Program-made: the position numbers and the translations under genes
Shown: in pieces, positions 8,884-62,940 of the stretch
Numbering within the stretch: the first letter of the stretch is position 1
How the letters are laid out: each line of letters starts with the position of its first letter
Origin: Natronobacterium gregoryi SP2
GTDB lineage: Archaea > Halobacteriota > Halobacteria > Halobacteriales > Natrialbaceae
Length of the DNA stretch: 64,000 bases
Assembly (NCBI RefSeq): GCF_000230715.2
Contig: NC_019792.1
Coordinates: forward strand, 2,976,001-3,040,000
Direction of reading: 5' to 3'
Notes under the pieces: generated by a model
Databases searched by the model: none
Seen by the model: the letters and a program-made list of their open reading frames with translations, nothing else
Told to the model about the DNA's origin: nothing

Positions 8884-8884
8884 C

Positions 8885-8956
8885 CGCTCGTACGGTTTCC
8901 TGTCTGTCAGTTTCTGGCCACCTGCGACCAAGTGGTTGCACCGGCAAATCGATACA
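8885..8956. repeat. Palindromic repeat R1, copy 2, left part (split)
   Basis: TACGGTTTCCTGTCTGTCAG and the following TGCGACC..GGTTGCACCGG match the first two-thirds of R1. The match breaks at 8956, where a mobile element begins, and resumes at 10233 (CGATACAGCA, like CGGGACAGCA in intact copies). The repeat therefore records the pre-insertion site. Confidence 0.55.
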
Positions 8957-9081
8957 AGGGTGTCATAGAACGGTCCCCACACCCGATTCGTCACTACTCT
9001 CCGCCAGTCAGTATAGGTGTAGCACGAGAGATCGAAATGTACTCGGAACCTGTCAGAACTGGCGTGCTGAATACAGGGCGC
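8957..9081. repeat. 126-bp element left-end block, copy 1
   Basis: This block is repeated at 21669-21794 with a single base difference. Copy 1 (8956-9081) starts with the GGGTGTCATAGAAC end and finishes with CGTGCTGAATACAGGGC and two further bases. After it the two loci diverge completely. Confidence 0.8.
9063..9079. repeat. Inner inverted repeat, left arm
   Basis: CGTGCTGAATACAGGGC pairs with GCTCTGTATTCAGCACG at 10093-10109, with one mismatch in 17. No target duplication is visible immediately outside this pair. Confidence 0.7.
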
Positions 9082-9156
9082 GAATGTGGCACGGACTGAG
9101 GAGCTATCAACATGGAAGTCGAACGCTCATCAGTAGTTGCTTGATTTGATAAGTGC

Positions 9157-9169
9157 AAAACTATATTGG
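9157..9169 (+). promoter_or_regulatory. TATA box for the element-borne membrane proteins
   Basis: AAAACTATATTGG lies 27-39 bases before the ATG at 9196, the spacing of a leaderless haloarchaeal promoter. The cargo thus brings its own promoter. Confidence 0.5.
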
Positions 9170-9195
9170 TTTGGCATAAAACAATTCTGTCATAC

Positions 9196-9555
9196 ATGAG
9201 TGAACAGGAAATCGATCAAACCGAACAGCTCCAGCGGGTAGGAATTGGACTGGTACTGGGTGGGATCGTCTTCGGTGGCCTGTCGTTCGGTGTCGATGCA
9301 TTGGTGGGCGGTATCGTACTGCTGGTCGCTGGCGTAGCCGTCTGGTGGAGAGAGTATCGACGGGAACTGACCATCGGCATTGGTCTTGGAATCGGCGTGG
9401 CCGGAGTGGTAGTCCTAATCGAGACAGGAGCTGATACCGGTTTCAGCAATAACTTCTTGGCTGCAGCGCTTGTCGTGGGCGGCGTCGTAGATTACCTGCT
9501 CGCGCCCGCCTACGGCAGATTACAAGATGCAGGCGAACGAACTGTTGGAAGGTAA
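9196..9555 (+). CDS. Small membrane protein, element cargo 1
   Basis: 119 residues with four predicted membrane helices (about 17-33, 36-52, 65-80, 90-108) and an Arg-rich loop (WWREYRREL). No family recognised. I chose the ATG at 9196 (MSEQEIDQTEQ) because it sits about 30 bases after a TATA-like box. It lies inside the transposase-less element and is followed four bases later by a second membrane-protein gene, so the two form an operon. Confidence 0.65.
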   Translation: MSEQEIDQTEQLQRVGIGLVLGGIVFGGLSFGVDALVGGIVLLVAGVAVWWREYRRELTIGIGLGIGVAGVVVLIETGADTGFSNNFLAAALVVGGVVDYLLAPAYGRLQDAGERTVGR

Positions 9556-9559
9556 CCGT

Positions 9560-9943
9560 ATGAAAATATCTACATCTGGTGAGACGAGCGAGCGTTCACC
9601 GGCGGAAACAGCTTGGTTCGCACTCTTGGGCATCGCGTTCGTGCTCGCCGGTTTGGGATTGTTCTACGGACTTGCAGTCGACTCAATGCAGATGATCAGC
9701 GTTGCACTGATCACTATCTTCGTACTGTTTGCTGTATCGATGGGAATCCTCATCCGGAGCGAGCCGATCCGTTCCAGAGAGAACGCCGTAATTGCGATCT
9801 GCGTGTTTGTTGCGATGGCACTCTACCTTGGATTGAGTGTATTCACTGCTCTTCCGTTCGCCGTGCTTGTTGGCGTCCTCTTCGTCGTTGGTGTAATCGT
9901 CCCGGGATTAGTCCTTCAGTATGGAGTGACGAACGCCGAGTAA
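9560..9943 (+). CDS. Small membrane protein, element cargo 2
   Basis: 127 residues with four predicted membrane helices (about 20-40, 47-66, 78-95, 97-118) after a polar N terminus (MKISTSGETSERS). No family recognised. The ATG at 9560 follows a GGAAGG ribosome-binding site and comes right after the stop of cargo 1; the upstream in-frame start at 9527 would overlap cargo 1. The two proteins probably act together in the membrane. Their role is unknown. Confidence 0.6.
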   Translation: MKISTSGETSERSPAETAWFALLGIAFVLAGLGLFYGLAVDSMQMISVALITIFVLFAVSMGILIRSEPIRSRENAVIAICVFVAMALYLGLSVFTALPFAVLVGVLFVVGVIVPGLVLQYGVTNAE

Positions 9944-10092
9944 GAGCACTGAATGTCTCAAAGACGCGACAAAAATCAAATAAATGATATTGTTGGTGGG
10001 TATTAGCACGTACGGTAATTTAGCAGCCAGTTCGTATGCCCAGTTTTCACCTAATCCTCATGGGAACAAACACCGCCGGCTGATGAATACAT

Positions 10093-10109
10093 GCTCTGTA
10101 TTCAGCACG
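10093..10109. repeat. Inner inverted repeat, right arm
   Basis: GCTCTGTATTCAGCACG is the partner of 9063-9079. The core GCTCTGTATTCAGC recurs at 22132-22145, after the cargo of the related element at 21669. Confidence 0.7.
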
Positions 10110-10260
10110 TTGCTAAGAACATCTATCGGAACTGGCAGAATCGCTGGCAGTTGATACCCACGCGAGACCGAACGGTTATTTGATACTATTCAGCGCGAGA
10201 ATGGCCCTTGTGAAGAGTTCTATGACAGTCTCCGATACAGCAATCGGTACACCCTCTGTG

Positions 10261-11991: not shown

Positions 11992-12107
11992 ATCACGGAC
12001 GTAGGGAATGATGCGGTTAGTTGTTACGTTTAGTCTCCGCTCGGGTGACTGGGTCGACCGCCGTTCGGACCGGTAGATTGATAGGAGACAAATCGGAATA
12101 GTTCGAT

Positions 12108-12212: not shown

Positions 12213-12218
12213 TCGAAT

Positions 12219-13567: not shown

Positions 13568-13629
13568 TCGTCACGAGCGAGAGCGTTTTCGTCTCTCTAC
13601 CACTCGAGTGATCTCGGCGTTACAGCGGT

Positions 13630-13690
13630 AGCGAGGCGAACGCCCACCCCTTCAGGGTGAGCGGAAGTCAACGAGGTGACGTTCGTTCCG
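13630..13690. mobile_element. Solo IS200/IS605 right-end-like hairpin
   Basis: CGCCCACCCCTTCAGGGTGAGCGG is a strong hairpin followed by AAGTCA. This arrangement is familiar from the 3' end of haloarchaeal tnpB elements, but no tnpB is present here. I read it as a relic end. Confidence 0.4.
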
Positions 13691-13696
13691 ATCGAC

Positions 13697-13891
13697 AGTT
13701 TCATCACTCTTCTAACAGGGTCGGAAACACGCTCGACGCTATCCTCGGACTGGTACTCCTGTTTGGCATTCTGTGGGCAGCAGTGTACTCTGGCACGAAA
13801 GCACCACTGCACGAGTTTTATCGGCAGCCAAGGCGAATACCCCGAGGCGATTCACCGGGAAATAGAGGACGACATCGGTCCGAACGAGTAA
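13697..13891 (+). pseudogene. Remnant of a small one-helix membrane protein (frameshifted)
   Basis: One frame reads a hydrophobic helix (TLDAILGLVLLFGILWAAVY) followed by SGTKAPLHE. The next frame then reads FIGSQGEYPEAIHREIEDD with strongly haloarchaeal codon use and ends at 13891. The switch is near 13817. It is most simply a decayed small gene; no start could be assigned and no family is recognised. Confidence 0.35.
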
Positions 13892-13921
13892 CGACGAACC
13901 GACGTCCGACTCCGCTGGCGA

Positions 13922-16264
13922 TCAGCGCACCGAATCGAGCAACAACTTCTGCTCGACCCGCTTTACTTCGTGCTGGACATCACGGACAGCGTCGATGTTC
14001 GCGGAGATCGAACTGATCCCCTCATTGACGAGGAACCGGACCATCTCCGGCTTGGAACCGGCCTGGCCACAGATGCTCGTATCGACGTCGTGTTCGCGGC
14101 AGGTCTCGATGACGTCACCGATCAGTCGCAGGACGGCAGGATGAAGTTCGTCGAACCGGTCAGCGACGTGTTCGTTGTTCCGGTCGACCGCGAGCGTGTA
14201 CTGGGTCAGGTCGTTCGTGCCGAAAGAGGCAAAGTCGATGCCGGCTGCCGCCATCTCCTCGACGGCCAGCGCCGAGGCGGGCGTCTCGATCATCACACCC
14301 CACTTGCGCTTGTCGGGATCGATCCCGGCATCACGCATCAGGCTCTTGGCCGCGTAGACGTCTTCAGCGTCGTTGACCAGTGGGAGCATGATCTCGACGT
14401 TGTCGTAGCCCATCTCGTAGAGCCGGCGAAACGCCTCGAGTTCGTGAGCAAAGACGTCCGGGCGATCCAGCGAACGCCGGATGCCACGGTAGCCAAGCAT
14501 CGGATTGTGCTCGTCGGGTTCGTCCTCGCCGCCCTCGAGTTGGCGGAACTCGTCGGTCGGGGCGTCGAGCGTGCGCACGCGAACGGGACGCGGGTAGAAC
14601 TCGTCGGCGACGCCGCGGATGCCATCGACGAGTTGTGTGACGTACTCGTCCTCGCCGTTTTCCCGGATGAACTTCTCCGGAGTCTGGTTCAGCGAGAGGA
14701 TCATGTGCTCGGTTCGCAAGAGCCCAACGCCGTCGGCACCCGTCGCAGCCGCGCGTTCGGCCGCCTCGGGGATCGAGACGTTGACTTTCACCTCGGTCGC
14801 GGTCATCGGCTTGACCGGCGACTGTGGCCGCACCTCTTCGACGGGTTCGGTCTCTTCCTCTGGCTCGAGTGTCTTCCCTTCGATGACGTGGCCTTTCTCA
14901 CCGTCGAGGGTAATGACCTGTCCGTCCTCCAGGACGGACGTGGCGTTGGTCGTGCCGACGACCGCTGGGACGCCGAGTTCGCGGGAGACGATCGCGGCGT
15001 GGCTGGTCATTCCGCCTTCGTCGGTAACGATTCCCGAAGCGCGTTTCATCGCAGGCACCATATCGGGCATCGTCATCTCGGTGACGATAACGTCGCCTTC
15101 GCCGACCTTCGCGAGGTCGTCGAGTTTGGAGACGATTTTGGCGGCACCGCTTGCGGTCCCAGGACTCGAGCCGAGACCGTCGACGATGACTTCGTCGGAG
15201 GCCGTCGTGTCGGCACTCTCGGTGCTACTCGTTGTTGCCGTGCCGCTGCCGTCGGTGACTCCTTTCGTCGGATCGGCCAGTCCTTCGGTCAGGTCCGCTT
15301 TCGCGCTTGCGGACGCGTCTTCGTCGATCGTCGTGATCGGCCGGGACTGGAGCATGTAGACGTCTCCGTCGACGATCGCCCACTCGACATCCTGTGGCTG
15401 GTCGTAGTGGTCCTCGACACGCTCGCCGAGGTCGACGAGCGCCTCGATTTCCTCGTCTTCGAGCACTCGTCGATCGCGCTTTTCCTCGGGAACCTCGCGT
15501 TCGACCGTCTCACCGGTCGCTTCGTCTTTGACGTGCATCACCTTCTTCTCGGCGACGGTCACGTCTACCTCGTCGTCGCTCTCGCGAGGAATGACGTAGT
15601 TGTCCGGGGAGACTGCACCGGAGACGACGGCTTCCCCCAAGCCCCAAGCGGCCTCGACGATCATCGTCGGCTCACCGGTCGATGGGTGGCTGGTAAACAT
15701 CACACCGGACTTGTCGGCGTCGACCATCTGTTGGACGACGACGGCGATGTTGACTGCCGAGTGGTCGAACCCCTGCTCCTGGCGGTAGTAGATCGCCCGC
15801 TGAGTGAACAGCGAAGCCCAACACTCTCGGACGCGTTCTAGGAGCCTCCCCTCCGTGACGTTCAGAAACGTCTCCTGTTGGCCGGCGAAAGAGGCGTCGG
15901 GCAGGTCCTCGGCCGTCGCCGACGAACGAACGGCGACGAAAGCGTCTCCGTCGCCGACCTCACGGTAGGCCTCGAGGACTTCCTCTCGCAGGTCGTCGGG
16001 GAACGGCGTCTCGGTGATCAACTCCTGCGCACGATCCGCGGCGTCGGCGAGAGCATTCGAGTCCTCGACGTCGACGTCGACGGCCTCGAACAGTTCCTCG
16101 TCGATTCCCGCTTCTTCGATGAACGATCGGTAGGTCCCGGCAGTGACAACGAAGCCTGGGGGCACGGGCAGCCCAGCACCCGTGAGTTCGCCCAGGGAGG
16201 CACCTTTTCCGCCGACCTGCTCGAGGTCGTCGGCACTGATTTCGTCCAGCCAGAGTACAGCCAT
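13922..16264 (-). CDS. ppsA: Phosphoenolpyruvate synthase
   Basis: 780 residues with the three PPS domains in order. The N-terminal ATP-grasp part begins GGKGASLGEL and includes GVMFTSHPSTGEP. The swivelling phosphohistidine domain has GGMTSHAAIVSRELG. The C-terminal PEP/pyruvate barrel includes GTNDLTQYTLAVDR and SICGQAGS. It converts pyruvate and ATP to PEP, AMP and phosphate for gluconeogenesis. An acidic, Ser/Thr-rich linker (about 375-420) is longer than in bacterial enzymes. I chose the ATG at 16264 (MAVLWLDEI), giving the normal family start. Confidence 0.95.
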   Translation of the reverse strand: MAVLWLDEISADDLEQVGGKGASLGELTGAGLPVPPGFVVTAGTYRSFIEEAGIDEELFEAVDVDVEDSNALADAADRAQELITETPFPDDLREEVLEAYREVGDGDAFVAVRSSATAEDLPDASFAGQQETFLNVTEGRLLERVRECWASLFTQRAIYYRQEQGFDHSAVNIAVVVQQMVDADKSGVMFTSHPSTGEPTMIVEAAWGLGEAVVSGAVSPDNYVIPRESDDEVDVTVAEKKVMHVKDEATGETVEREVPEEKRDRRVLEDEEIEALVDLGERVEDHYDQPQDVEWAIVDGDVYMLQSRPITTIDEDASASAKADLTEGLADPTKGVTDGSGTATTSSTESADTTASDEVIVDGLGSSPGTASGAAKIVSKLDDLAKVGEGDVIVTEMTMPDMVPAMKRASGIVTDEGGMTSHAAIVSRELGVPAVVGTTNATSVLEDGQVITLDGEKGHVIEGKTLEPEEETEPVEEVRPQSPVKPMTATEVKVNVSIPEAAERAAATGADGVGLLRTEHMILSLNQTPEKFIRENGEDEYVTQLVDGIRGVADEFYPRPVRVRTLDAPTDEFRQLEGGEDEPDEHNPMLGYRGIRRSLDRPDVFAHELEAFRRLYEMGYDNVEIMLPLVNDAEDVYAAKSLMRDAGIDPDKRKWGVMIETPASALAVEEMAAAGIDFASFGTNDLTQYTLAVDRNNEHVADRFDELHPAVLRLIGDVIETCREHDVDTSICGQAGSKPEMVRFLVNEGISSISANIDAVRDVQHEVKRVEQKLLLDSVR

Positions 16265-16385
16265 CTCTATATGGGAGGTCAGGAGAACGGATAAAGAAGG
16301 TTGCGAACGTCTCCCGCAATTCGCAACTCGCAACCGAATGAGTTTCTTCGACGGCTGGCGACTTTCGCCGCTCGAGCGACGACGA

Positions 16386-16473
16386 AGACGGACTGCTGTC
16401 CCGATGTCCCGGCGCGACCGCAGGAGCGCGGTCGCGCCGGAACTGACTGACAGCAAACCGTCTGAACCGGTCG
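16386..16473. repeat. Palindromic repeat R1, copy 3 (reverse)
   Basis: Inner arms CCGGCGCGACCGC and GCGGTCGCGCCGG are identical to other copies; outer parts GCTGTCCCGATGTCC and ACTGACTGACAGCAAACCGT also match. It lies between ppsA and the PhzF gene, which are both on the minus strand. Confidence 0.75.
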
Positions 16474-16474
16474 G

Positions 16475-17377
16475 TCAGGCCTCGAGAATCTCGTCTTCCG
16501 CTGTCGGCGGAACGACCATCGCCCCCTCGAGTACGACGACGCCACGGCCGCCGACTTGCACCTCGTCTCCAACCCGAACGCGGACGACGCCCGGTCGATC
16601 GACGTAGTGGCCCTGCTCGAGTCTGAGTTCGTCAGGGAAGTCGTCGTCGAACGCGCCGAAGCGATCGAGGTACGCGCCGACGGCACCGCTTGCCGTTCCC
16701 GTGACGGGGTCCTCGGTGACTCCCGCGCCGGGCGCAAACATCCGCCCGTGCAGCGACGACTCGCCCGCGAGCGTATCGAAACTAAAGACGTAGACGCCTG
16801 CGGCGTCGACTGACTCGGCCAGTGACTCGATCGCGGTCGTGTCCGGCTCGGCCGCACCGAGATCCGAGAGATACGTGATCGGGACGATCAGGAACGCCAG
16901 CCCGGTCGAGGAGACTGCGAGCGGGATATCGTCGCTTGCCCCTTCGAGTGCCGCTTCGTCGACACCCAACGCGTCCGCGACGCGATCGTAGCCGACATCG
17001 ACCTCCCGGACCTGTGGCGCGTCCTGGGTCAGCCAGACCGTACCGTCCTCCTCGACGTCGACCTTGAGGACGCCGACGTTCGTCTCGAGTGTGATCGTGC
17101 CGGGTTCGAGGCCCTCTCGGTCGTGAAGGTAGGTGAACGACCCGATCGTAGCGTGTCCACAGAGATCGACCTCCTGTGTGGGAGTGAAATAGCGGATTCG
17201 ATAGTCGGCGTCGTCGCTCGAGCGGAGGAAGGCGGTCTCGCTGACCGCCATCTCGTCGGCGATCGCCTGCATCTGGTCGTCGGTGAGGCCGTCCGCGTCC
17301 GGGACGACGCCGGCGGGGTTGCCCGCAAGCGGATCGTCGGTGAACGCGTCGACCTGAAAGAGCCGGATCGTCTCCAT
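16475..17377 (-). CDS. PhzF family isomerase/epimerase
   Basis: 300 residues with the two-lobed PhzF fold. The catalytic Glu is in AVSETAFL (about residue 47), the GHATIGS loop is at about 75, and the second-half DPVTGTASGAVGAYL loop is present. Members include diaminopimelate-epimerase-like enzymes and PhzF itself; most microbial ones have unknown substrates. The gene is monocistronic, its stop abutting repeat R1, so context gives no function. Confidence 0.85.
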   Translation of the reverse strand: METIRLFQVDAFTDDPLAGNPAGVVPDADGLTDDQMQAIADEMAVSETAFLRSSDDADYRIRYFTPTQEVDLCGHATIGSFTYLHDREGLEPGTITLETNVGVLKVDVEEDGTVWLTQDAPQVREVDVGYDRVADALGVDEAALEGASDDIPLAVSSTGLAFLIVPITYLSDLGAAEPDTTAIESLAESVDAAGVYVFSFDTLAGESSLHGRMFAPGAGVTEDPVTGTASGAVGAYLDRFGAFDDDFPDELRLEQGHYVDRPGVVRVRVGDEVQVGGRGVVVLEGAMVVPPTAEDEILEA

Positions 17378-17414
17378 ATCCGATGGTGTGCCGGCACACT
17401 ATTCGTTCTTTTCT

Positions 17415-17437
17415 CTAGTGGCTTGGGCCGCCACTAG
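17415..17437. repeat. Short CTAG-ended palindrome (possible collapsed MITE)
   Basis: CTAGTGGC-TTGGGCC-GCCACTAG has perfect 8-bp ends identical to the ends of the M1/M2 repeats but almost no interior. It may be an internal deletion derivative. Confidence 0.45.
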
Positions 17438-17635
17438 CCGTCACTCGAGCGGCTGCCGACAGTGCCGACTCGGACAGCGTACCGGAGAGTGTTTCACCAC
17501 GAGTTGTGGCCGCCAAACCAGTGCCCAGACAGTACGTCGTCTCGTTGCAGCGTCTCGGATCGGTTCCTGCCCGTCGGTTCCGGTACGATCACGGCCCGAA
17601 GCAGTCGTCATCGGGTCGTCGGTCCAGCGACCGTA

Positions 17636-19156
17636 TCACTGGTCTTGTTTCGAGAGCACGGACGGGATTATCCACGCTCCCCTGAAGAACCACACAGCGG
17701 CGACCACCGACGCGATCACGTAGGAGAACGCGATCGAATACCACACCCCAGTGACGCCGGCCTCGAGCCAGACGAGCGCTGCGTAACTGAGCGGAATACG
17801 GAACACGAGAAGTTCCAGAGAGGCCATCATCATCGCGAGTTTCGTGTTTCCGCTTCCGCGGAACGCGCCGAGAATCACCTGGAATACGGCAAAGAAGATC
17901 AGTGCCGGTCCAACGACCCGGATGAAGGCGGCACCGCCCTGTACAACAGCATCGGCAGCGACGTCACCTCCTTCCACGGCCAGAAACACGCCGACGATCG
18001 ACTCGGCGAACGGATAGGCACCGGCGACGATACAGGTGAAGAGGGCAACGGCTATCCCACCAGAGAGGTAGACTGCCCGCTTGGCACGAGCCAGTTGGCC
18101 GGCACCGAGATTCTGACCGACAACCGCTTCCACTCCTCGAGCGAGCCCCAGCGAGATGACAAAGAGGATTCCAACGAGGTACTCGGAGATGCCATACGCT
18201 GCGACGGCAGCAGCACCCTCGATTGCTATGATGGCCGTCAGGACTGCGACGCCGCCTGCCCGAACCGTCATCTCGACCACCGTCGGGGAACCGATCTTGA
18301 CGATTTGGGTGACCGTCGAGCGACGCAAGCGCAGCGAACTGGGCGTGATCTCGAACCCGAGTCGGCCGGAAAAGAGGATGTACAGACCGAGTGCAGCGGC
18401 AACCGATCGGGAGAGGACCGTCGCAACTGCAGCACCCTCGATGCCGTAGCCGGCAAACCCAGTCTGGGCATACAGCGACGTTTCTAACGCGGACAAGCCA
18501 GCCCACTCGAAGAGTGGGTTAGCCGAGAATCCATGGATGAGAAACGGGTCGATGACCACGTTGATGGTCGTGCTCACGGCCATCAGCTTGAGCGGCGTTC
18601 TCGTATCACCCCATCCTCGAGACAGGGCATTGAATACGAAAAACCAGAACGTCGGCACCAGGCCGAGGAACGTGATGCGCGCGTACTGGACGGCAAGCGT
18701 GTGGGGGGCCGTTTCGGGGAGTGCTCCGACGAGCGTAAGCAACCACGGCGTGAGGGCGTATCCGGCTATCGCGAGCACGGCGGAGAGAATCGTCACGAAC
18801 GAGATGGTTCCCCCGGCAGCCGAGGGAATAGCCCGGAACCGCCCCGTCCCCTTGTACTGTGCGACGAGTACGGTTCCTGCGGTCACGATACCGAAGCCGA
18901 CGCTCATACCGAGGTAGATGACCGGCCACGCGTAGGACATCGCCGCAATCGCGTCCGTTCCGAGATGGCCGATCCAGTAGAGGTCGACCAGGAAATAGAC
19001 CATGTCGAGCCCTTCGGCGAGAACGATCGGCGCTGAAAGAACTACCAGCGGCTTGAATAGTCGGCCGTCGACGACGTCGACCGATCGACCCTGTGAGGGA
19101 GAACTCTGCGTCGTTGAATCCTGAGAAACCACATCCTTCGTCGTCTCATCAACCAT
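17636..19156 (-). CDS. MATE family multidrug/metabolite exporter
   Basis: 506 residues with twelve predicted membrane helices in two related halves. Typical MATE features are PIVLAEGLDMVYFLVDLYWI in helix 1-2 and GLGRGVEAVVGQNLGAG-like (here GLARGVEAVVGQNLGAG) in the second half. These exporters use Na+ or H+ gradients to expel cationic drugs or metabolites. I chose the ATG at 19156 (MVDETTKDVV); the start at 19189 would add an atypical segment. The HTH_10 regulator gene at 19213 lies just upstream on the same strand, suggesting linked expression. Confidence 0.85.
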   Translation of the reverse strand: MVDETTKDVVSQDSTTQSSPSQGRSVDVVDGRLFKPLVVLSAPIVLAEGLDMVYFLVDLYWIGHLGTDAIAAMSYAWPVIYLGMSVGFGIVTAGTVLVAQYKGTGRFRAIPSAAGGTISFVTILSAVLAIAGYALTPWLLTLVGALPETAPHTLAVQYARITFLGLVPTFWFFVFNALSRGWGDTRTPLKLMAVSTTINVVIDPFLIHGFSANPLFEWAGLSALETSLYAQTGFAGYGIEGAAVATVLSRSVAAALGLYILFSGRLGFEITPSSLRLRRSTVTQIVKIGSPTVVEMTVRAGGVAVLTAIIAIEGAAAVAAYGISEYLVGILFVISLGLARGVEAVVGQNLGAGQLARAKRAVYLSGGIAVALFTCIVAGAYPFAESIVGVFLAVEGGDVAADAVVQGGAAFIRVVGPALIFFAVFQVILGAFRGSGNTKLAMMMASLELLVFRIPLSYAALVWLEAGVTGVWYSIAFSYVIASVVAAVWFFRGAWIIPSVLSKQDQ

Positions 19157-19212
19157 CGTATACTGATATAAGGGCCACACGTGGATCACTGAAGCCCCAC
19201 ACTGTCCGGGGT

Positions 19213-19863
19213 TTAATAAGGTCTGTCGGAGAAGTAGTGTTCGAAGACGTGAGACTGGCCCCGATGTAACCGTTCGGCGAGTGCCGAGCGAGAAATAGCG
19301 AGTACGTCGGCAACGTCTCTGAGCGAGGTTCGTCTCGGCACGTCGAAGTATCCCTCCTCGTAGGCCACCCGCAGTGCTTCGTGTTGTTTCTCCGAGACAC
19401 CGGGAATACGATAATCGTCGGTATTCGACTCGTACAGGCGACGGAGCTGAAAATCCATATTCATCTTTCGGCAGCTATCACGGTAGGAGACGAGTTCCTC
19501 ACGGTTTGCAAACTGCTGTTTGAGGTGCTCTCCTTCGCTTGTAACCCACCACCGTTCGACGAGTGTCTTGTTGAATACGAGTTCGTCGATCTCCTCGGGA
19601 TAGAGATTCTCAACGACCGTGTGGTAGATACGTACCGTCTCTTCGTCGCTGATGAGTGCATACTCCGTAACCGAGTCTTCGTCTTCGAGGGCTGTTTCGA
19701 ACGCCTCGAACGAACCGCAGACGACCCGGAGAACGAATACGATCGGCCCAGCATCAGCTTGATCCTCCTCTTCGATGGTAATCGTACACTCCGGAACTGC
19801 CCGAGCGATAGAAATCAGCGGGTGCTGTTTCGAAAACAGTCTGAACTCTGCCGTCAACACCAT
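19213..19863 (-). CDS. HTH_10 (Bat-type) transcriptional regulator
   Basis: 216 residues: an N-terminal sensing region (about 1-150) and a C-terminal HTH_10 domain (about 158-210) with SEKQHEALRVAYEEGYFDVP and then LRDVADVLAISRSALAERLH. The gene ends 56 bases before the MATE exporter on the same strand, so the two are probably co-transcribed and the regulator may respond to the exporter's substrate (inference). The ATG at 19863 gives the normal MVLTAEF-type beginning of the family. Confidence 0.85.
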   Translation of the reverse strand: MVLTAEFRLFSKQHPLISIARAVPECTITIEEEDQADAGPIVFVLRVVCGSFEAFETALEDEDSVTEYALISDEETVRIYHTVVENLYPEEIDELVFNKTLVERWWVTSEGEHLKQQFANREELVSYRDSCRKMNMDFQLRRLYESNTDDYRIPGVSEKQHEALRVAYEEGYFDVPRRTSLRDVADVLAISRSALAERLHRGQSHVFEHYFSDRPY

Positions 19864-20044
19864 ATCGATCGGATACGGGCGAAAGCACTAACACTCTTGG
19901 ACTCGCCGTGCTGGTAACAGCGGCGGAACGGCCAGACCACCCGCGTGCTCACCGACGGTCCAGCAGCCTTACGCGCAGTCGCCACCGATCGCAGTTGCAC
20001 CGATACGTCGATCCAGCAATCCGGCCCACATTACGGAATGTCGG

Positions 20045-21451
20045 TCACTCGTCGACGTCTCGGCCCGTCGATCGTTCGGCGTCGTGGGTTCCGACCGGTG
20101 GAAGGTTCACTTCCGCTGCCGGCGAAGACTCGAGATCCGTCGTCGCCGCCAACTGGGCCATCTCGCCGTCCGCACGGGCGTCTTGGTCGATTCGCATCGA
20201 ACAGAACTCGACTCCACACATCGAGCAAAAGCGAGCCTCCTTGTAGTTGTCCTCTGGAAGCGTCTGATCGTGGTACTCGCGGGCGCGATCGGGGTCCAAC
20301 GCCAGACTGAACTGTTCGCGCCAGTCGAACTCGTAGCGCGCTTCCGAGAGCGCGTCGTCCCAGTCTCGAGCGCCGGGTAACCCGTTTGCCACGTCACCCG
20401 CGTGGGCAGCGATTCGGTAGGCCGCCAGGCCATCGCGGACGTCTTCGTCGTCGGGCAAGCCGAGATGTTCTTTGGGTGTGACGTAGCACAACATGGCAGC
20501 GCCGGCCTGGGCGGCGATCGCAGCCCCGATGGCGCTCGTGATGTGATCGTAGCCGGGTGCAACGTCCGTCACGAGCGGCCCGAGAACGTAGAACGGCGCG
20601 CCGTCACAGACGTCTTGCTGTCGCCGGACGTTCTCGGCGATCCGGTCCATCGGGACGTGGCCAGGGCCTTCCACCAGCACCTGGACATCGTACTCCCAGG
20701 CCCGGCGAGTGAGCTCGCCGAGCGTGTCCAGTTCGGCGTACTGGGCCTCGTCGCAGGCATCGGCGAGACAGCCGGGCCGGAGGCTGTCACCCAGGCTGAA
20801 CGTGACGTCGTGTTCGGCGAAGACCTCGCAAATCTCGTCGTAGATCTGGAACAGCGGATTCTGTTCGCCGTGTTCCTCCAGCCACCTCGCCACGATCGAG
20901 CCGCCTCGCGAGACGATCCCGGTCTTTCGCCCGTCGGTCAGCGGCAGGTGCTCCGCGAGAACGCCCGCATGGACCGTCATGTAGTCGACACCCTGCTCGG
21001 CTTGCTTCTCGATGATCTCGAGCAGCAGGTCCGTCGTAATCGCCTCGGGACTTCCGGCCTGCTTGACGGCCTCGTACAGCGGAACGGTGCCGATCGGGAC
21101 GGGCGAGTGGTCGACGTGGGCCTCCCGAATCGCATCTAAGTCGCTGCCGGTCCCGAGATCCATCACCGTATCCGCGCCGTAGTGAACCGCGGTGTGGAGT
21201 TTCTCGAGTTCGGTCTCGAGGTCGCTCGTCGTCTCGCTGTTGCCGATGTTGGCGTTGACCTTCGTTGCGAACTCGCGGCCGATGATCATCGGGTCGAGAG
21301 CGTCGTGGTGCCGGTTGGCCGGAATGACGGCCTGACCGTCGGCGATCTGCTGTCGAACGAACGCCGGATCGCGGTTCTCGCGCTTGGCGACGCGTTCCAT
21401 CTCCTCGGTGATCGTTCCGCTTCGGGCGGCTGCAATCTGGGTGTTCGCCAT
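20045..21451 (-). CDS. thiC: Phosphomethylpyrimidine synthase (ThiC)
   Basis: 468 residues, a radical-SAM enzyme that turns aminoimidazole ribotide into hydroxymethylpyrimidine phosphate for thiamine. The C-terminal cluster motif [11 protein letters not shown] (CxxCxxxxC) is intact, as are the barrel motifs [31 protein letters not shown] and [12 protein letters not shown] short acidic tail follows the cluster. I chose the ATG at 21451 because a TATA box lies about 29 bases upstream, giving a leaderless message; there is therefore no room for a TPP riboswitch. Confidence 0.95.
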
Positions 21452-21473
21452 CAATAACTAAGTTGTATCATCG

Positions 21474-21486
21474 AGTTATAAATAGT
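21474..21486 (-). promoter_or_regulatory. thiC promoter (TATA box)
   Basis: On the minus strand, ACTATTTATAACTC is centred about 29 bases before the ATG at 21451. This is classic haloarchaeal leaderless spacing. Confidence 0.6.
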
Positions 21487-21612
21487 TGTCTGGTCGTGGA
21501 AAACAGCACCTCAGCGTCCGATACCCGATATATCGTCGTCAGTATCTCGATTCCAGCGACAAGTGAGGCTGTGGCACACGGCTCGTAACTGACCTCTCAT
21601 ATGGTCTGGGGT

Positions 21613-21667
21613 AGTCAATTACCACCGATCCCCGATTCCTGTCTGGCGATCGGCGGTAACTAGTTAC
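21613..21667. repeat. Inverted repeat R2, copy 2
   Basis: TTACCACCGATC (21619-21630) and GATCGGCGGTAA (21648-21659) form a 12-bp inverted repeat with one mismatch. It resembles the repeat at 4555-4607, and the right arm continues as CTAGTTAC. The left end of a mobile element begins three bases after it. Confidence 0.6.
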
Positions 21668-21668
21668 A

Positions 21669-21794
21669 AAGGGTGTCATAGAACGGTCCCCACACCCGAT
21701 TCGTCACTACTCTCCGCCAGTCAGTATAGGTGTAGCACGAGAGGTCGAAATGTACTCGGAACCTGTCAGAACTGGCGTGCTGAATACAGGGCGC
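21669..21794. mobile_element. 126-bp element left-end block, copy 2, with different cargo
   Basis: This stretch is identical to 8956-9081 except for one base (AGAGGTCG for AGAGATCG). It includes the AGGGTGTCATAGAAC end and the inner repeat CGTGCTGAATACAGGGC (21776-21792). The sequence after it is unrelated to the first copy and encodes a small, probably frameshifted gene. GCTCTGTATTCAGC (22132-22145) closes the cargo. No outer right end (GTTCTATGACA..) was found, so the element is truncated or its right side was lost. Confidence 0.65.
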
Positions 21795-21823
21795 ATATGT
21801 TTATCTCTGGAGAATTCGAGGGG

Positions 21824-22104
21824 ATGGAGAACAGTTGTACAGACAAGCGAGTCAGAGTGTATCTCAATATGGAGCCTTCTGTCGCAAATTTAGTGAGACT
21901 TGTCCGGACGGAAAGGCTCGTGACTTCGAGCGAGCGCTATTCATGTTCGGAGGGTTCATCATGAATCTGCCGCCGAAAGACGCCCCAACACCAATAGAAA
22001 GAATCGATGAGACACTAGAGGCTCAAGAGAAATCGGTCACCAATATGCACGACGAGTATGGGTACGCGATGGTCAACATCAGCGAGATACAAGAGCCTGA
22101 GTGA
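21824..22104 (+). pseudogene. Small element-borne gene, probably frameshifted
   Basis: From the ATG at 21824 the frame reads MENSCTDKRVRVYLNMEPSV and ends after 46 residues. The overlapping frame (formal start 21835) continues with haloarchaeal-looking sequence (TCPDGKARDFERALFMFGG, then IERIDETLEAQEKS) to 22104. Joining the two near 21900 gives an ~92-residue protein whose N terminus looks like a beta strand of a ribbon-helix-helix or small regulator. A TTTATC box lies about 24 bases before the ATG. Family unknown. Confidence 0.45.
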
Positions 22105-22131
22105 AAGTGCAAACTAAAGCGCTGAGCTTAT

Positions 22132-22145
22132 GCTCTGTATTCAGC
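22132..22145. repeat. Cargo-closing repeat of the second element
   Basis: GCTCTGTATTCAGC is the reverse complement of the GCTGAATACAG core at 21779-21789 and equals the core of the right arm at 10093. Confidence 0.6.
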
Positions 22146-22210
22146 GACGATCTTTCTCTCTCATCCTGAGAGTTTCGGCGGAGCCAAAAACAGCTATCGT
22201 AGCGGCGACG

Positions 22211-23671
22211 TTAGGCGACCAGTCCTTCGACCGCGCCGCTGACTGCCTCCTGGATCTCGGCGGAGGCGAAGCCAAGCGTCAGGCCGATGACTGCACCGAT
22301 GACGATTGCGATGAGCATCCCTTTCGTGATCGCGGTTGGATCGACATCCTCCCCGTCGAAGGGATGGAAGTAGATCCGGTTGACGAAGGGCAAGAGATAG
22401 CCCGCCGACAGGAGCGTGCTCCCGAGGACGAGCAGGGAGACGAGCCACATCCCCTCCTCGAACGCGCCGAGTGCGATGTACCACTTGCCGACGAACCCGA
22501 CCGTCGGCGGCAGACCGATCATCGCGACCGCGAGCACGGCGAAGGCACCAGCCATAACGGGCGCGCGTTTCGCGACGCCGGCGTACTCCTCGAGCGTGCG
22601 AATGCCGCCAAACCGGAGCGCGAACATCCCTGCGAGAACGAACAGCGATGCTTTGACGACGCCGTGGCCGAAGATCTGTAGAATCGAGCCGAAGACGGCG
22701 GTCTCGTTGGCGATCGCGATACCAACGAAGATGAGTCCGAACTGTGAGACCGTCGAGTACGCCAGTACGAGTTTGATGTGGTCCTGTAGGAGTGCGAAGA
22801 AGCCACCAGCGAAGAGGCTAAAGAGCGCGGCGACCAGCAGCAGGTTCGAGATCGTCGGGTTCGCCGCCAGGAAGTCCATCGTAAAGACGGTAAACATCAC
22901 GCGAGCGAATGCATACAGCGCGACCGCGGGAACGAGCGCCGAGATGACGGCGCTGATGCCGTCCGGTGCGGAGGCGTGGGCGTCCGCCAGCCAGGTGTGA
23001 ACTGGGAACAACGCGATCTTGATTCCGAGGCCGACCGTGATCAGGACGAACGCGGCGGTCACCACGGGATCGGTGTAGCCGACATCGGCCAGTAGCTCCG
23101 GCAGTCGCCGCATGGTGAGCGTCCCGGTTGAAGCGAGCATCAGTGCGACGCCGAGCAGGTAGAAACCGGCCCCGACCGTGCCCACGAGCAAGTACTTGAA
23201 CGCGGCGTAGGTCGACCACCGGTACTTCGAAGCCGAGACCAGAGCATACGAGGAGATCGCCATGATCTCGAGGAAGACGTACATGTTGAACAGGTCGCCA
23301 GTGAGCAGGATACCGAGCATCCCGCCGACCAGCAGGAGGAAGCCGCCGTAGAAAGCGTTTCCTCGTGGCCCGCCAACGCGCGTGTAGACGAGGACGCCAA
23401 GACAGACGAGTAAGACGAGCAGGATGACGACGATCGAGAACTCGTCGGCGAACAGTTCGATACCGTAGGGGGTTGGAACGCCGCCGAGTTCGTGGCTTTG
23501 CTGGCCGTCTCGTGCGACCATCCAGGTGAGTATCACCGACAGCCCGAACGTCACGGTGACGATCAGGCTGGCGAACGACCAGCCGACGCCTTTCCACCGG
23601 ACGGTCGCAGCGATCGGTACCGTCGCAGAGAGAAGCGGCAGGAGGACGATCACGGCGAGGAGCCAGTCCAT
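22211..23671 (-). CDS. mrpD: Mrp antiporter MrpD-type subunit (third copy)
   Basis: 486 residues with about 14 membrane helices of the proton-channel family shared with complex I NuoL/M/N. Functional residues are visible: GDLFNMYVFLEIMAIS (Glu of helix 5), YLLVGTVGAGFYLLG, GLGIKIALFPVHTWL (Lys of helix 7) and DHIKLVLAYSTVSQFG (helix 8 region). It closes the mrp operon. In Mrp complexes MrpD moves protons or Na+ across the membrane. Its start comes two bases after the stop of a tiny ORF, which suggests translational coupling. Confidence 0.9.
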   Translation of the reverse strand: MDWLLAVIVLLPLLSATVPIAATVRWKGVGWSFASLIVTVTFGLSVILTWMVARDGQQSHELGGVPTPYGIELFADEFSIVVILLVLLVCLGVLVYTRVGGPRGNAFYGGFLLLVGGMLGILLTGDLFNMYVFLEIMAISSYALVSASKYRWSTYAAFKYLLVGTVGAGFYLLGVALMLASTGTLTMRRLPELLADVGYTDPVVTAAFVLITVGLGIKIALFPVHTWLADAHASAPDGISAVISALVPAVALYAFARVMFTVFTMDFLAANPTISNLLLVAALFSLFAGGFFALLQDHIKLVLAYSTVSQFGLIFVGIAIANETAVFGSILQIFGHGVVKASLFVLAGMFALRFGGIRTLEEYAGVAKRAPVMAGAFAVLAVAMIGLPPTVGFVGKWYIALGAFEEGMWLVSLLVLGSTLLSAGYLLPFVNRIYFHPFDGEDVDPTAITKGMLIAIVIGAVIGLTLGFASAEIQEAVSGAVEGLVA

Positions 23672-58554: not shown

Positions 58555-58836
58555 ATGGAATACGACCTCGACTCGGGAGCACACTCGAAGTTTTCCCTGC
58601 ACTATCACCTGGTACTCACCACGAAGTATCGGCGCGGAGTGCTAACCGAGGAGCGAACCCAATTCATTCGCGAGGTTATCAGCGGGTTCACGGACAACTA
58701 CGGTGTCAAATTGACGAACCTCGACGGCGAGGACGACCACGTACACATCCTCTTCCGAGCGAAACCAACCACAGACCTCGTGAAGTTCATCAACACAGTC
58801 AAGGGCGCGACCGCCCGCCGTATTCGCAACGAATAG
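58555..58836 (+). pseudogene. tnpA: IS200/IS605 tnpA, 5' part (split by a transposon)
   Basis: 93 codons encode the start of a Y1 HUH transposase: HYHLVLTTKYRR, then DDHVHILFRAKP with the HUH pair (His-Val-His). The frame is cut at AAC GAA TA, where a 4.1-kb transposon begins. The remaining 43 codons with the catalytic Tyr (LKQYVEDQ) are at 62941-63072. Joining the two across one copy of the duplication restores an uninterrupted protein of about 137 residues. Confidence 0.9.
58828..58835. repeat. Target-site duplication, left copy
   Basis: AACGAATA, identical to 62941-62948 on the other side of the transposon. Confidence 0.9.
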
Positions 58837-59001
58837 AGGGTGTCATAGAACGGTTAACATGGTGTAGATAGTAGCGGAAAAGACTCCTATCATCGGTTCG
58901 CAGTCCCCCAGCAAACCCGGGCTATCAGCTACCGTTTACCCAGCTACTACCGAAAGTATGTGGAGAGTTTTATGGAACCTTCTGCGAGCTATTGAACTGT
59001 T

Positions 59002-59994
59002 TCATACCCTGATGGTCGTGCTTCCCGGAGCATCCCCGCGCTCGTAGTTTGCGATTGCGACGGTCAGCCGGAGACATAGCGCGAGGAAGACTTGAGCTCT
59101 CGCGTGGACGCGGCCTCTGGCGCGCAGCATCCCGAGGCCGCAGTCCTTGCAGGCTCCGAGCGTTCGCTCGGCCTGTGACCGGCGGTTATACGTCTCTTCT
59201 AGAATTGATTGCTTGAGCTGGACACTCTCGCTGTGAATCTCAATGCGGTCTTCGACCCTGTACTCGATGTCGAGCGGGTCATCGGTATTGCGCGGGTTGT
59301 ACGGCGCGACAGGCACCACTCCTGCACTCAGCAAATAGTCGTGCCAGTCGAGGATATCGTAGGCACTGTCGCCGAGCATCCACATCGGCTGCTTGACGGC
59401 GAGCGCGTCACGGGTAACACGCATCGCCGTCTCTTGTGATGCCTGCTTGCTCTGGGTGAACTCCGCCGCAATTGGAATCTTTGCGCCGGTCGAGACTACC
59501 GTGCAGCCGTAGCCGTAGTAGTATTCCTCGGCAGTTGGGTCGTAGTTCTTCGAGGCGTCGGGATCAGTGGGCATAGCCCGGATGTCGGTCGAATCGATAC
59601 AAAATGTCGAGTCGAGCAGGCCCCGTCGAGCGGCCTGCTGGACGAGGTGCTCGAAAACTTCCTCGACGACGTGTTCGAGGTCGGTGAGAAAGCGGTCGAC
59701 CGCGTCTCGTGAGGGTGGTCGGTTGAAACCACATCCGAGCCAAACGAGGTCGTTGTTGAGTTCGCGTGCAACCGGGCGGATACCGTAGATGTCCTTATAG
59801 TAGCAGTGCAGAAAGCCTCGAAACAGCTCCGGCGGGTGGTGTTCCCGTGTTCGCCCTTCGGGAGTGGGGGCGAACACATCGAATTCGGTTAGGAACTCGA
59901 ATTGAAGATGCTCGAACAGCGCGAGCGTCTCCGTCTCTACAACATCGAAAAACGCCTCAATAGAGGGGTCCCCTCGTAGAATAGTGGAAGTCAT
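59002..59994 (-). CDS. DDE transposase (IS4/IS5-like)
   Basis: 330 residues with a DDE_Tnp_1 fold. The catalytic residues appear as FCIDSTDIRAM (first Asp), WMLGDSAYDILDW (second Asp) and YNRRSQAERTLG (Glu). The N-terminal region (about 55-115, ELFRGFLHCYYKDIYGI) resembles the DUF772-type DNA-binding part. It is the only transposase in the element and the likely motor of transposition, also for the element at 8957. The exact haloarchaeal IS group cannot be named without a search. Confidence 0.85.
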   Translation of the reverse strand: MTSTILRGDPSIEAFFDVVETETLALFEHLQFEFLTEFDVFAPTPEGRTREHHPPELFRGFLHCYYKDIYGIRPVARELNNDLVWLGCGFNRPPSRDAVDRFLTDLEHVVEEVFEHLVQQAARRGLLDSTFCIDSTDIRAMPTDPDASKNYDPTAEEYYYGYGCTVVSTGAKIPIAAEFTQSKQASQETAMRVTRDALAVKQPMWMLGDSAYDILDWHDYLLSAGVVPVAPYNPRNTDDPLDIEYRVEDRIEIHSESVQLKQSILEETYNRRSQAERTLGACKDCGLGMLRARGRVHARAQVFLALCLRLTVAIANYERGDAPGSTTIRV

Positions 59995-60071
59995 TCACCT
60001 CAGAACTCACTTCGGTCGTCAATTTTGATATTTCGCTGAGATATACACAGATGATTGAAAAAGGACATAAT

Positions 60072-60989
60072 TTACTGGACTTTGGTTTTGGAAGCTCGGT
60101 TGAGCAAGTAGACGGCAGTCCCTCCGAGAACGACGTTGAAACCGATGAGAACGGCGACAGCAGGAATTACCGTATTCCAGAGACCTGAGAAGGCTGTTAC
60201 ATTGAACACCGTCATCACATCTTGTCCGAGCATGAACGCTCGGACACCGTCAACACCGTAGGTGATGGGGTTGACTACTGCGAGAGACTGGATCCACCCT
60301 GGAAGGACCTCAAGCGGGACAAACGCACTAGAGATGAACAACAACGGGAACGTCAGAAGGGTGGCAATCATGGTCGTCGCCTCCTGATCATGTGTAATGA
60401 GCGCAATGATATTCGAGAACGCCATGAACGCACCACCGAATATTACTGCGACCGCGATGACGCCAACGAATCCCAGCAGTCCCGTCCGGTGATAGCTCCC
60501 AACCGACGCACCTGACTGTAGGTAGAGCATCACGTAACCAAGCAAGAAAATGATCGTAGTCTGAATAGCAATTCGAATCACCTCCGACAGAACCTTGCCG
60601 AGGAGCATTGCACCCCTGTCTATTGGCGAGGCGAGGAGTTTCTCGAACATTCCTGTGTCCATGTCGTTGACTAACCCAATACCGGAAACCGCTGCGGCAG
60701 CGAGTGCAGACTGAATCACGATAGCTGGGGTAAGGAATGTAATGTAGTTGATATTGTCACCAACTGTCTGGGCGAGCAGATCATCGACAATCGCGCCGAG
60801 GACTGCAGCCATCAACACAAAGAAGATGACTGGCTGGATCAGCGACGAGAACGTCACGAAAGGATTTCGGGATGTCTTGATTAGCCATCTTTTTAGACTG
60901 ATTCGCATATCTGACATGGAGCTATTTCCCGGGGCTTTCTGCGCGGTATTATCTCCCGAGATATGGCCCTCATCGGTGATGTCGCTCAT
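60072..60989 (-). CDS. ABC-2 type permease (DrrB-like), transposon cargo
   Basis: 305 residues with six membrane helices (about 45-65, 85-105, 130-155, 170-200, 205-230, 270-295). The ABC-2 signature region is GWIQSLAVVNPITYGVDGVR. It is the membrane half of an exporter for drugs or lipid-like molecules (DrrAB/NodJ type). The start overlaps the ATPase stop by four bases. Confidence 0.85.
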   Translation of the reverse strand: MSDITDEGHISGDNTAQKAPGNSSMSDMRISLKRWLIKTSRNPFVTFSSLIQPVIFFVLMAAVLGAIVDDLLAQTVGDNINYITFLTPAIVIQSALAAAAVSGIGLVNDMDTGMFEKLLASPIDRGAMLLGKVLSEVIRIAIQTTIIFLLGYVMLYLQSGASVGSYHRTGLLGFVGVIAVAVIFGGAFMAFSNIIALITHDQEATTMIATLLTFPLLFISSAFVPLEVLPGWIQSLAVVNPITYGVDGVRAFMLGQDVMTVFNVTAFSGLWNTVIPAVAVLIGFNVVLGGTAVYLLNRASKTKVQ

Positions 60990-62056
60990 TCGGCCACCCC
61001 CTGACCCGAGGCAAGAGCTCCTTGTTCGTTCGTCTCGTCTCCATTAGAGGCCTCCGGGTTCTTGCTAGTGAGCTTGAGGAACACATCATCTAGCGTGGGT
61101 GACCGGACATCGAATCCAGTAACGATAACGTTAGCCTCGTGAAGTGAGACGAAAAGTTCACTCGCGGCCTCCCGAGCATTTTCGGCTGTGATGGTGAACC
61201 CGTCGCTCGTCGTTTCGATACTCGGGGTTTCGAGCGCATCTGATTCCCGCACAACTTCTATTGCTCGTTCTCTCGCCTGTCTAGACGAGTCTTCCAGTGT
61301 TAGATCGAGAATGTCGCCACCGACAGCCGATTTGAGTGCTTCCGGAGTGTCAGTTGCGATGATTTCACCGTCCTGAATCACGGACAGACGGTCACAGAGC
61401 CGGTCCACTTCTTCGAGATACTGTGTTGTGAGAAACACCGTCGTTCCGTGCTCATTGAGTTGCTTAAAGTGATTCCAGAGGTGCATTCTAGCTTCGGGGT
61501 CGAGACCGGTCGTCGGCTCATCAAGGAACACCAGCGGAGGTCGATGCACGAGGACAGTGGCAGCGTCCAGGCGTTTTTTCATTCCACCAGAATAATTCTC
61601 TGCCCGCTTGTCGGCAACATCTGTGAGACCGACTAAATCGAGCAGTTCTTCAATACGTTCGCCTCGTTCGGATGGTGGAACACCATACACGTTGCAAGCA
61701 AACCGGAGGTTCTCACGCGCGGTGAGTTCCTCATCGACACTGGTCTCTTGAGCCATATAGCCGATAGATTCAGACACAGCTTGTGGCTCCGTTTTGACAT
61801 CATATCCGTTAATTGTCACTGAACCCCGATTTGGGTGGAGCAGTGTTACGAAGGTTTTGATAGTGGTCGTCTTTCCGGCACCGTTAGGTCCTAAGAAGCC
61901 AAAGAACTCCCCTTTCTCAACAGAGAGAGTGACATCACGAACGGCTTCGGTGCCATCTGGGTACGTAACATGTATCCCGTCGGCATTGATTGCGAGTTCC
62001 TCATTATTTGACTTGCACGAGCTATCGGTCTCCACTCGGGGTCGTTGTGGCACCAT
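60986..62056 (-). CDS. ABC transporter ATPase (DrrA-like), transposon cargo
   Basis: 356 residues. Walker A GPNGAGKTTT, Q-loop MAQETSVDEELT, signature YSGGMKKRLDAATVL, Walker B LVFLDEPTTGLDP and the switch His in LTTQYLEEVDRLC region are present. A C-terminal DUF4162-like extension (about 240-335) is typical of DrrA-type exporters. It forms one operon with the permease. Confidence 0.9.
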   Translation of the reverse strand: MVPQRPRVETDSSCKSNNEELAINADGIHVTYPDGTEAVRDVTLSVEKGEFFGFLGPNGAGKTTTIKTFVTLLHPNRGSVTINGYDVKTEPQAVSESIGYMAQETSVDEELTARENLRFACNVYGVPPSERGERIEELLDLVGLTDVADKRAENYSGGMKKRLDAATVLVHRPPLVFLDEPTTGLDPEARMHLWNHFKQLNEHGTTVFLTTQYLEEVDRLCDRLSVIQDGEIIATDTPEALKSAVGGDILDLTLEDSSRQARERAIEVVRESDALETPSIETTSDGFTITAENAREAASELFVSLHEANVIVTGFDVRSPTLDDVFLKLTSKNPEASNGDETNEQGALASGQGVAE

Positions 62057-62146
62057 AGTGGGATGTCAAACTAAGGGAGGTTGTCTGGCTAACCCTGTCT
62101 CTCATTTGTACGGCAGTTTATATGCCGTGTTGGAGAAACGGTAATT

Positions 62147-62833
62147 TCACTGGGGTAGCGGTGGCCATGTCGAGGCAACGGTTGTTTCGATGAGGTGGGT
62201 CTGTGCTCGGCGGAGGCGCTCGGAGAGTGACGAGGCAGTAATCCCGAGTTCGGCAGCGACCTCGTCAAGCGTTGCCGTTCGAGGGATGTCGAAGTGGCCC
62301 ATCTCGTAGGCGATTCGGAGTGCCTCGCGCTGGTGGTCAGTGAGTCCGTCTCCCGCTTCTTCAGCCTCTCCATCGTAAGTGAGTCGTCGCAAGGTAAATT
62401 CGCCGTTACGCTGCCAGAACGTACGAAATTCGTCCAACACTGCTCTATCTCTGAACCACCCGCTTTGTATCCAGCCGGTCGGCGTGACGCGGATTCGTTC
62501 AATAATGGAGTCGGTGGTAGCGAGTGCACGGAGCTCTGAGAGGTCCTCGATCTGCTCACCGAGTTGTGCTTCTATCCCCAGAGCTGGCAAAACCTGATAT
62601 TGACACGTTTCACCTGCCTGTCCGACCAGAGTGTGCTCCGCCACGAACGATGACGACTCGAAGGCTTGCTCAATAGACGCGGGTGTTTCATGCGTCGCGT
62701 GAACGATAAACGGTGGATGATTGCCATGATTCGGCTGAAGTTCGATATCCAGCGTTGCTTCCGGAACATCTCCTGCAATCGCCACGAGCGGGAGATGTTC
62801 ACAAGTGATTTCGTATTCAGCGATGAGGCCCAT
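62147..62833 (-). CDS. HTH_10 (Bat-type) regulator, transposon cargo
   Basis: 228 residues. The sensing part (about 1-165) includes TPTGWIQSGWFRD, and the C-terminal HTH_10 domain (about 170-220) has LTDHQREALRIAYEMGHFDI and then LDEVAAELGITASSLSERLR. I chose the ATG at 62833 (MGLIAEYEIT). It lies 90 bases upstream of the ABC exporter operon on the same strand and probably controls it, giving the transposon a self-regulated export module. Confidence 0.85.
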   Translation of the reverse strand: MGLIAEYEITCEHLPLVAIAGDVPEATLDIELQPNHGNHPPFIVHATHETPASIEQAFESSSFVAEHTLVGQAGETCQYQVLPALGIEAQLGEQIEDLSELRALATTDSIIERIRVTPTGWIQSGWFRDRAVLDEFRTFWQRNGEFTLRRLTYDGEAEEAGDGLTDHQREALRIAYEMGHFDIPRTATLDEVAAELGITASSLSERLRRAQTHLIETTVASTWPPLPQ

Positions 62834-62940
62834 ATCTCTCAACACTCACCACTACGGATATACAACTTGGAACGGTTGCCTGATAATCGTTACTCGCTCA
62901 ACTACTGGCGACGGTTTGCGAAGAGTTCTATGACACCCTC

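Follow-up and report, generated by a model that had tools for sequence, protein, structure and literature searches.

The window analysed here, a stretch of 64 kb (64,000 nucleotides) of the Natronobacterium gregoryi genome, contains two loci that start with the same 126-bp block and continue with unrelated cargo. We lean towards reading both loci as members of a haloarchaeal gene-cassette system in IS-mobilised frames, with exchange at CTGAATACAG by a trans-acting recombinase. One cassette, or several cassettes head to tail, would lie inside outer frames, and the frames would be mobile as transposons that lack a transposase of their own, with resident ISs presumably acting in trans. Recombination at CTGAATACAG and at a 39-bp inverted double junction would replace, add or re-order cassettes; it is probably conservative and site-specific, with the recombinase acting in trans. 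The broader statement, that Halobacteria own a gene-capture system independent of integrons, with CTGAATACAG-bounded cassettes, arrays of up to roughly 20, a dedicated recombinase at 39-bp inverted double sites and IS-driven frames of several kinds, is put forward tentatively, as a possibility.

Haloarchaea swap genes readily, and the movement of single accessory genes is largely open. The signal was found in nearly half of the sampled genomes, with cargo including enzymes, transporters, regulators and a defence-like gene. A cassette system, if true, would be a concrete and testable vehicle. It would also mark mobile accessory genes in the genome of any haloarchaeon, and might be the sign of a new recombinase that has a short target.

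The two elements of the window and their terminal repeats

The blocks at 8956-9081 and 21669-21794 are identical except for a single mismatch (A at 9031, G at 21744), and the sequence that follows is unrelated in the two copies, as the first-pass annotation had described. The sequence GCTGAATACAG occurs at four sites in the window (9066+, 10096-, 21779+, 22135-), where 0.32 are expected, and none of 100 shuffles reaches four. The inverted copies at 10096 and 22135 close the cargo of both elements, which that annotation had also seen correctly. The following features were assigned to the two elements.

8950..8955, no strand: left direct repeat CGATAC (from sequence); the layout recurs at the relative L152 (AGTTAC)
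8956..9081, + strand: element 1 left end, AAGGGTGTCATAGAAC and frame, ending in the motif GTGCTGAATACAGGGCGC; 99% identical to 21669-21794, TIR common to ISs of the genome
9065-9079, + strand: 15-base motif core in the element 1 left end (from sequence)
9066..10106, + strand: element 1 cassette, with L-type inner end, two small membrane-protein genes and R-type inner end
9166..9555, + strand: element 1 cargo gene 1, predicted membrane protein of no family; ATG at 9196 is the likely start
9527..9943, + strand: element 1 cargo gene 2, predicted membrane protein of no family; start at 9560 possible
10096..10232, - strand: element 1 right end, with motif GCTGAATACAGAGC, frame and terminal repeat GAGACTGTCATAGAACTCTTC; 79% over ~170 bp to the L152 right end
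10233..10238, no strand: right direct repeat CGATAC (from sequence)
21669..21794, + strand: element 2 left end, frame as in element 1 (block identity)
21779..22145, + strand: element 2 cassette, with L-type end, frame-shifted small gene (21797-21964 and 21835-22104) and R-type end GCTGAATACAGAGCATAAGCTCAGC (rc)
22132..22185, - strand: element 2 right end, other frame type (A-like), rc GGCTCCGCCGAAACTCTCAGGATGAGAGAGAAAGATCGTCGCTGAATACAGAGC; classified A2|R, TIR variant GGCTCTGCCGAAATCC also in L068

Element 1 (8956-10232) is predicted to be a complete element without a transposase, since it possesses an IS-type TIR at both ends and is flanked by CGATAC (6 bp) on both sides. Its right boundary at 10232 has rc GAGACTGTCATAGAAC, and its right tip, rc GACTGTCATAGAACTCTTC, resembles the right end of a 4.1-kb element at 58836-62940. 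The two open frames in its cargo (at most 129 and 138 aa) matched no convincing protein family.

The cargo of element 2 is a short frame-shifted gene, and this element has no transposase either. The limits 21669-22145 proposed earlier for this element hold on the left; on the right the boundary lies at ~22185, beyond the closing GCTCTGTATTCAGC, in a second end type with rc GGCTCCGCCGAAACTCTC...GTCGCTGAATACAGAGC. The two ends of element 2 belong to different types and no target duplication surrounds it. The fixed closing repeat of the first-pass annotation applies to the motif itself and not to the outer right ends, as the right closing sequences of the two elements have nothing in common past the motif. 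RNA families gave zero matches in positions 8000-23000 of the window, and no relatives of the window cargo were found among the collected loci.

The flank of element 2 at 21610-21668 and that of L152 present a further likeness. These C-frame elements (frame types are given below) come from different species and show no synteny, yet each lies next to a hairpin-like flank with GGTAACTAGTTAC at its end; the flank is perhaps a preferred target or an attached repeat. L152 was rejected as an orthologue of the copy-2 insertion, since the common part is the hairpin-like flank of ~59 bp, with no synteny.

The block starts with AAGGGTGTCATAGAAC, the terminal repeat of nine full IS copies in the genome, and the window harbours a third element with this repeat and a transposase.

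58836..62940, no strand: third element, same terminal repeat as the block (GAGGGTGTCATAGAAC); 8-bp target duplication AACGAATA (58828-58835, 62941-62948)
59002..59994, - strand: DDE transposase, PF01609, IS1182/IS5-like (profile match; nine full relatives)

This third element is inserted within an IS200-like tnpA, which it disrupts, and its cargo comprises the DDE transposase, DrrA/DrrB-like ABC transporter genes and an HTH_10 regulator, without CTGAATACAG cassette signals. The nine full relatives of the transposase in the genome (78% identity) are present as bare 1.06-kb ISs with the TIR RAGGGTGTCATAGAA, several of them with clean 8-bp duplications, such as GATGAAAA at L074, and GCTGAATACAG is absent from these bare ISs. 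The 59002-59994 transposase is likely the type of enzyme that acts on AGGGTGTCATAGAA ends. An A-type repeat also flanks an IS5-like IS in the N. gregoryi genome. IS6-type transposases were rejected as the source of GGCTCTGTTGAAAC ends, given that the IS240-type matches in the same genome have other ends and that the repeat borders the IS5-like IS. Target duplications are of 8 bp in the A-frame relatives and in the ISs with the terminal repeat of the block, and of 6 bp in element 1 and L152. The window copies match mobile insertion cassettes in their predicted structure, apart from the target duplication, for which 8 bp would be expected.

Frames, inner ends and tandem arrays

The architecture was drawn from ~170 loci collected by motif. 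The motif GTGCTGAATACAGRGC marks a boundary, with the outer frame on one side and the cassette inner end on the other. The cargo is enclosed by two inner ends that face each other, L (GTGCTGAATACAGRGCGCGAATGTGGCACGA) and R (GTGCTGAATACAGAGGATGAGTTCAGCACG, fuller form GTGCTGAATACAGAGGATGAGTTCAGCACGACGGCTTCGTTTGTTTC). Outer frames belong to at least two unrelated terminal-repeat types, and the motif was found in these contexts.

Frame A: GGCCTTGTTGAAACCCTCA...GGTTTCAGCGGCC (42 bp) and GGCTCTGTTGAAACCCTCAGAACGTGATAGGATTGTC (37 bp)
Frames B-left and B-right: ~65 bp each, with an A-like or C-like tip farther out
Frame C: the 126-bp window block
Type D: the junction at which one cassette of a tandem adjoins the next

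Perfect 8-bp target duplications flank eight A-frame pairs, whose ends lie exactly 37 and 42 bp from the motif; another such duplication was found for a B-frame pair, at 109/111 bp. The TIRs and the target duplications at fixed offsets show the frames to be transposon ends. Frames A, B and C are mutually unrelated save for the 12-18-bp motif, and the same inner ends are present in all of them. A second site-like sequence, GATCGCTCAGTACAG, lies ~50 bp inward of the L motif (e.g. L058, L152, L169, L206). The common cargo of one cross-genus pair starts exactly at the inward site-like sequence, so exchange may extend to the L end as a module of its own.

Arrays of many cassettes exist. Two inverted motifs lie exactly 39 bp apart in thirty-six of the forty-three collected junctions, and the tandem units have this 39-bp spacer in common, without TIRs or target duplications. 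A scan for junctions with up to three mismatches detected them in 42 of the 125 genomes of the family, the reversed control giving none; one genome had 47 and another 18. The same scan detected no tandem junction in the N. gregoryi genome.

The orientation of the inner ends was counted with a strict score. At junctions, the L side had 22 L and 0 R ends, and the R side 0 L and 21 R ends. Orientation is also fixed in B frames (16:1 and 1:17) and free in A frames (14:8 and 5:6), so that inversion of cassettes was found in A frames only. When set to score 22, the classifier of inner ends gives ~11% chance matches, judged by unrelated sites in viral contigs (3 of 27), and a recount at score 28 led to the same result. 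Adjacent sites alternate in direction (134 opposite vs 30 same). Two facing sites should allow a cassette to invert; the restriction of inversion to A frames indicates that motifs do not recombine freely with one another, and the fixed orientation in B frames and arrays likewise argues against unrestricted recombination.

No covariation was found between the arms of the junction, which carry no compensatory changes. Selection for a hairpin at the junction was rejected on this ground, and the absence of covariation argues for recognition of a duplex over a folded strand. The core CTG-A-AT-A-CAG is nearly palindromic and would suit a dimeric recombinase.

The motif GTGCTGAATACAGRGC is present in 176 of the 391 genomes of the class, representing 56 of the 86 genera, and in 72 of the 125 genomes of the family; the reversed pattern gave zero matches in the same genome sets. 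Two named carriers of the exact junction are Halomicroarcula rubra and Halorussus salinisoli, which, like the gene content, point to Halobacteria as the class. These counts point to a mobile gene-cassette family that would be widespread in haloarchaea. The exact motif is also present in 27 IMG/VR contigs, but without the flanking frame sequence, so these matches were attributed to chance and viral carriage of cassettes was rejected. The literature search covered open-access papers and found no account of a haloarchaeal system of this kind; a prior description in subscription papers is possible.

Cargo genes and their exchange

The cargo is very diverse. Among its seventy-eight proteins are a photolyase, SelO, a racemase, a formate/nitrite transporter and transporters of the CNNM and MgtE types, together with EamA transporters, CAAX proteases, HTH_10/BAT regulators and a ThsB-like protein. 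No recombinase was present among the twenty-five commonest or best families listed for these 78 proteins, and no transposase recurs among the families listed. The direction of cargo genes relative to L-R is random (25:26, with open frames picked by a crude rule). At L010 (in the N. gregoryi genome, ~3197060) a solitary TACTGAATACAGGGCGCGAATTCAGCA signal precedes a gene that, by eye, resembles one for a TATA-binding protein; the cassette cargo at this locus is perhaps the gene of a general transcription factor.

Nine distinct readable copies of the block were found, three in the N. gregoryi genome, five in a second genome of the genus and one in another genus, and the cargo differs in all nine. 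The outcome that the first-pass annotation had named as refuting its reading, identical cargo in every other copy, thus did not occur. An all-against-all comparison of sites (36-bp outer side) revealed 43 pairs with the outer side at least 90% alike and the inner side unrelated. In seven pairs the inner side is common and the outer unrelated, and in three both are common. As the loci were collected by motif and the pair thresholds force any break to fall close to it, part of the sharpness is a product of the method, and the evidence lies in the numbers of pairs. Several apparent pairs of genome G017 with the same inner side were left out, as an IS had landed in the motif.

Whole-cassette alignments, which were not picked by their ends, also place the same cargo in differing frames and genera. 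For one membrane-protein gene (239 and 238 aa), the copies from two genera and two contexts have 93% identity along 853 bp, and the identity starts at CGCTCAGTACAG, a further site-like sequence on the inner border of the L end. The cargo gene MSNETHHTTPE... (318-376 aa) was found in junction/A, B/B and junction/junction contexts, with 72-75% identity. The break can be placed within TGCTGAATA in the pair L106/L111. As far as sequence comparison reaches, modularity, arrays, the transposon nature of the frames and the exchange of cargo between frames and genera are demonstrated. The exchange of passenger genes suggested by the first-pass annotation is thus well supported, both by the nine block copies and by the varied cargo with the same punctuation across the family; the specific reaction is what we infer.

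Alternative explanations and related systems

The main rival is homologous recombination, for which the conserved punctuation (~100-150 bp per junction, tens of bp per end) would be mere homology. Haloarchaea are capable of vigorous homologous recombination. The junction with the inner ends offers ~130 conserved bp, and no recombinase travels with the cassettes among the listed cargo families. However, frames A, B and C have the same inner ends with only the 12-18-bp motif in common, and homologous recombination alone leaves the constant 39-bp spacing and the fixed orientations unexplained; we regard it as unlikely.

It is rather improbable that the loci are only transposase-less transposons (mobile insertion cassettes), with the motif as the transposase-binding part of the long ends of one old superfamily, and with varied captures and side-by-side insertions accounting for the rest. 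The TIRs, the 8-bp duplications and the long, asymmetric and partly conserved ends agree with this explanation, as does the insertion of haloarchaeal mobile elements into one another (PMC3119063). Nevertheless, the motif is missing from bare ISs that carry the TIR of the block and is common to two unrelated TIR types, and A-frame cassettes occur in both orientations. Moreover, the 39-bp spacer of tandem units is devoid of TIRs and target duplications, and 126 bp of end are 99% identical beside fully unrelated cargo. Mobile insertion cassettes and MITEs (PMC2266710, PMC3129680, PMC3119063) similarly lack a transposase and possess TIRs of resident ISs, target duplications and passenger genes, but the loci described here have a second, inner layer of signals across unrelated TIR types and form multi-cassette arrays. 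The MITEs of Haloquadratum (PMC3119063) are short and nearly all non-coding, and no such cargo was described for them.

The L..R unit could also be a transposon in its own right, with TGCTGAATACAG as terminal repeats and a single favoured insertion spot in the frames, and its ends are indeed inverted, asymmetric and conserved. This is very improbable, as no direct repeats were seen flanking the inner unit, no frame without a cassette was seen among the collected loci, no transposase recurs in the listed cargo families, and the same position would need to be hit in several unrelated frames. The repeated insertion at one spot of the outer element that had been considered in the first-pass annotation is likewise not supported, given the same inner ends in several unrelated frames and in the tandem arrays. 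Simple IS relics with local decay, in spite of the frame-shifted gene of copy 2 and the IS terminal repeat inside the block, are hardly credible, since the cargos are unrelated and not decay products of one gene, other block copies hold yet other cargo, and the adjoining 126 bp are 99% identical.

The gene-cassette system with exchange at CTGAATACAG works like integrons and pdif modules but departs from each of them in defining features, and is therefore assigned to neither. Elements of the IS1111-attC group target the attC sites of integrons. Similar to integrons (attC; PMC9668308), it has arrays of unrelated genes in a fixed layout, a conserved and partly palindromic junction of uniform orientation, cassettes common to several arrays and genera, and an IS that lands specifically in the site, here of the IS5 family. 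In contrast to attC, with its GTTRRRY core and single-strand fold, the site here is CTGAATACAG, with arms without compensatory changes. The sites at the two ends of a cassette face each other, and those of a junction stand back to back. Integron cassette genes have one direction relative to the site, whereas the cargo genes here are divided 25 vs 26. IntI is encoded beside the integron array, whereas one sampled array here has a tyrosine recombinase, which is unlinked to junctions across 125 genomes. Halobacteria are not mentioned in the paper on archaeal integrons (PMC9668308).

Acinetobacter pdif modules (XerC-XerD; PMC6160057, PMC12907356) also consist of unrelated genes between inverted short sites that alternate along the DNA (here 134:30), with the enzyme presumably encoded elsewhere. 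Their sites are 28-bp dif-like XerC/XerD sites, whereas the core here is of 12-18 bp and unlike dif by eye. The archaeal loci further differ in the 39-bp spacer, the distinct L and R inner ends and the IS-type frames.

No recombinase for cassette exchange was identified at the sampled arrays or among the listed cargo families. A tyrosine recombinase gene (L210:13836-14771), with a small upstream gene, lies directly outside a large array, the only sampled array with one nearby. This gene was rejected as the cassette enzyme, as it is present in 22 of the 125 genomes and absent from the junction-rich genomes G089, G114, G093 and G094.

The cassette-end motif is also occupied by an IS5-family IS (283-aa transposase MKRAQVDVHSKLARF..., ends GGCCNTGTTTAGACGC), which sits exactly in the motif in about ten out of ten cases. 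The loci are L011, L069, L100-L103, L105, L106, L109, L111 and L117, and both L and R sites are among them. The insertions mostly show a clear 9-bp duplication, and the target is CGCGCCCTG^TATTCAG or GATACTCTG^TATTCAG.
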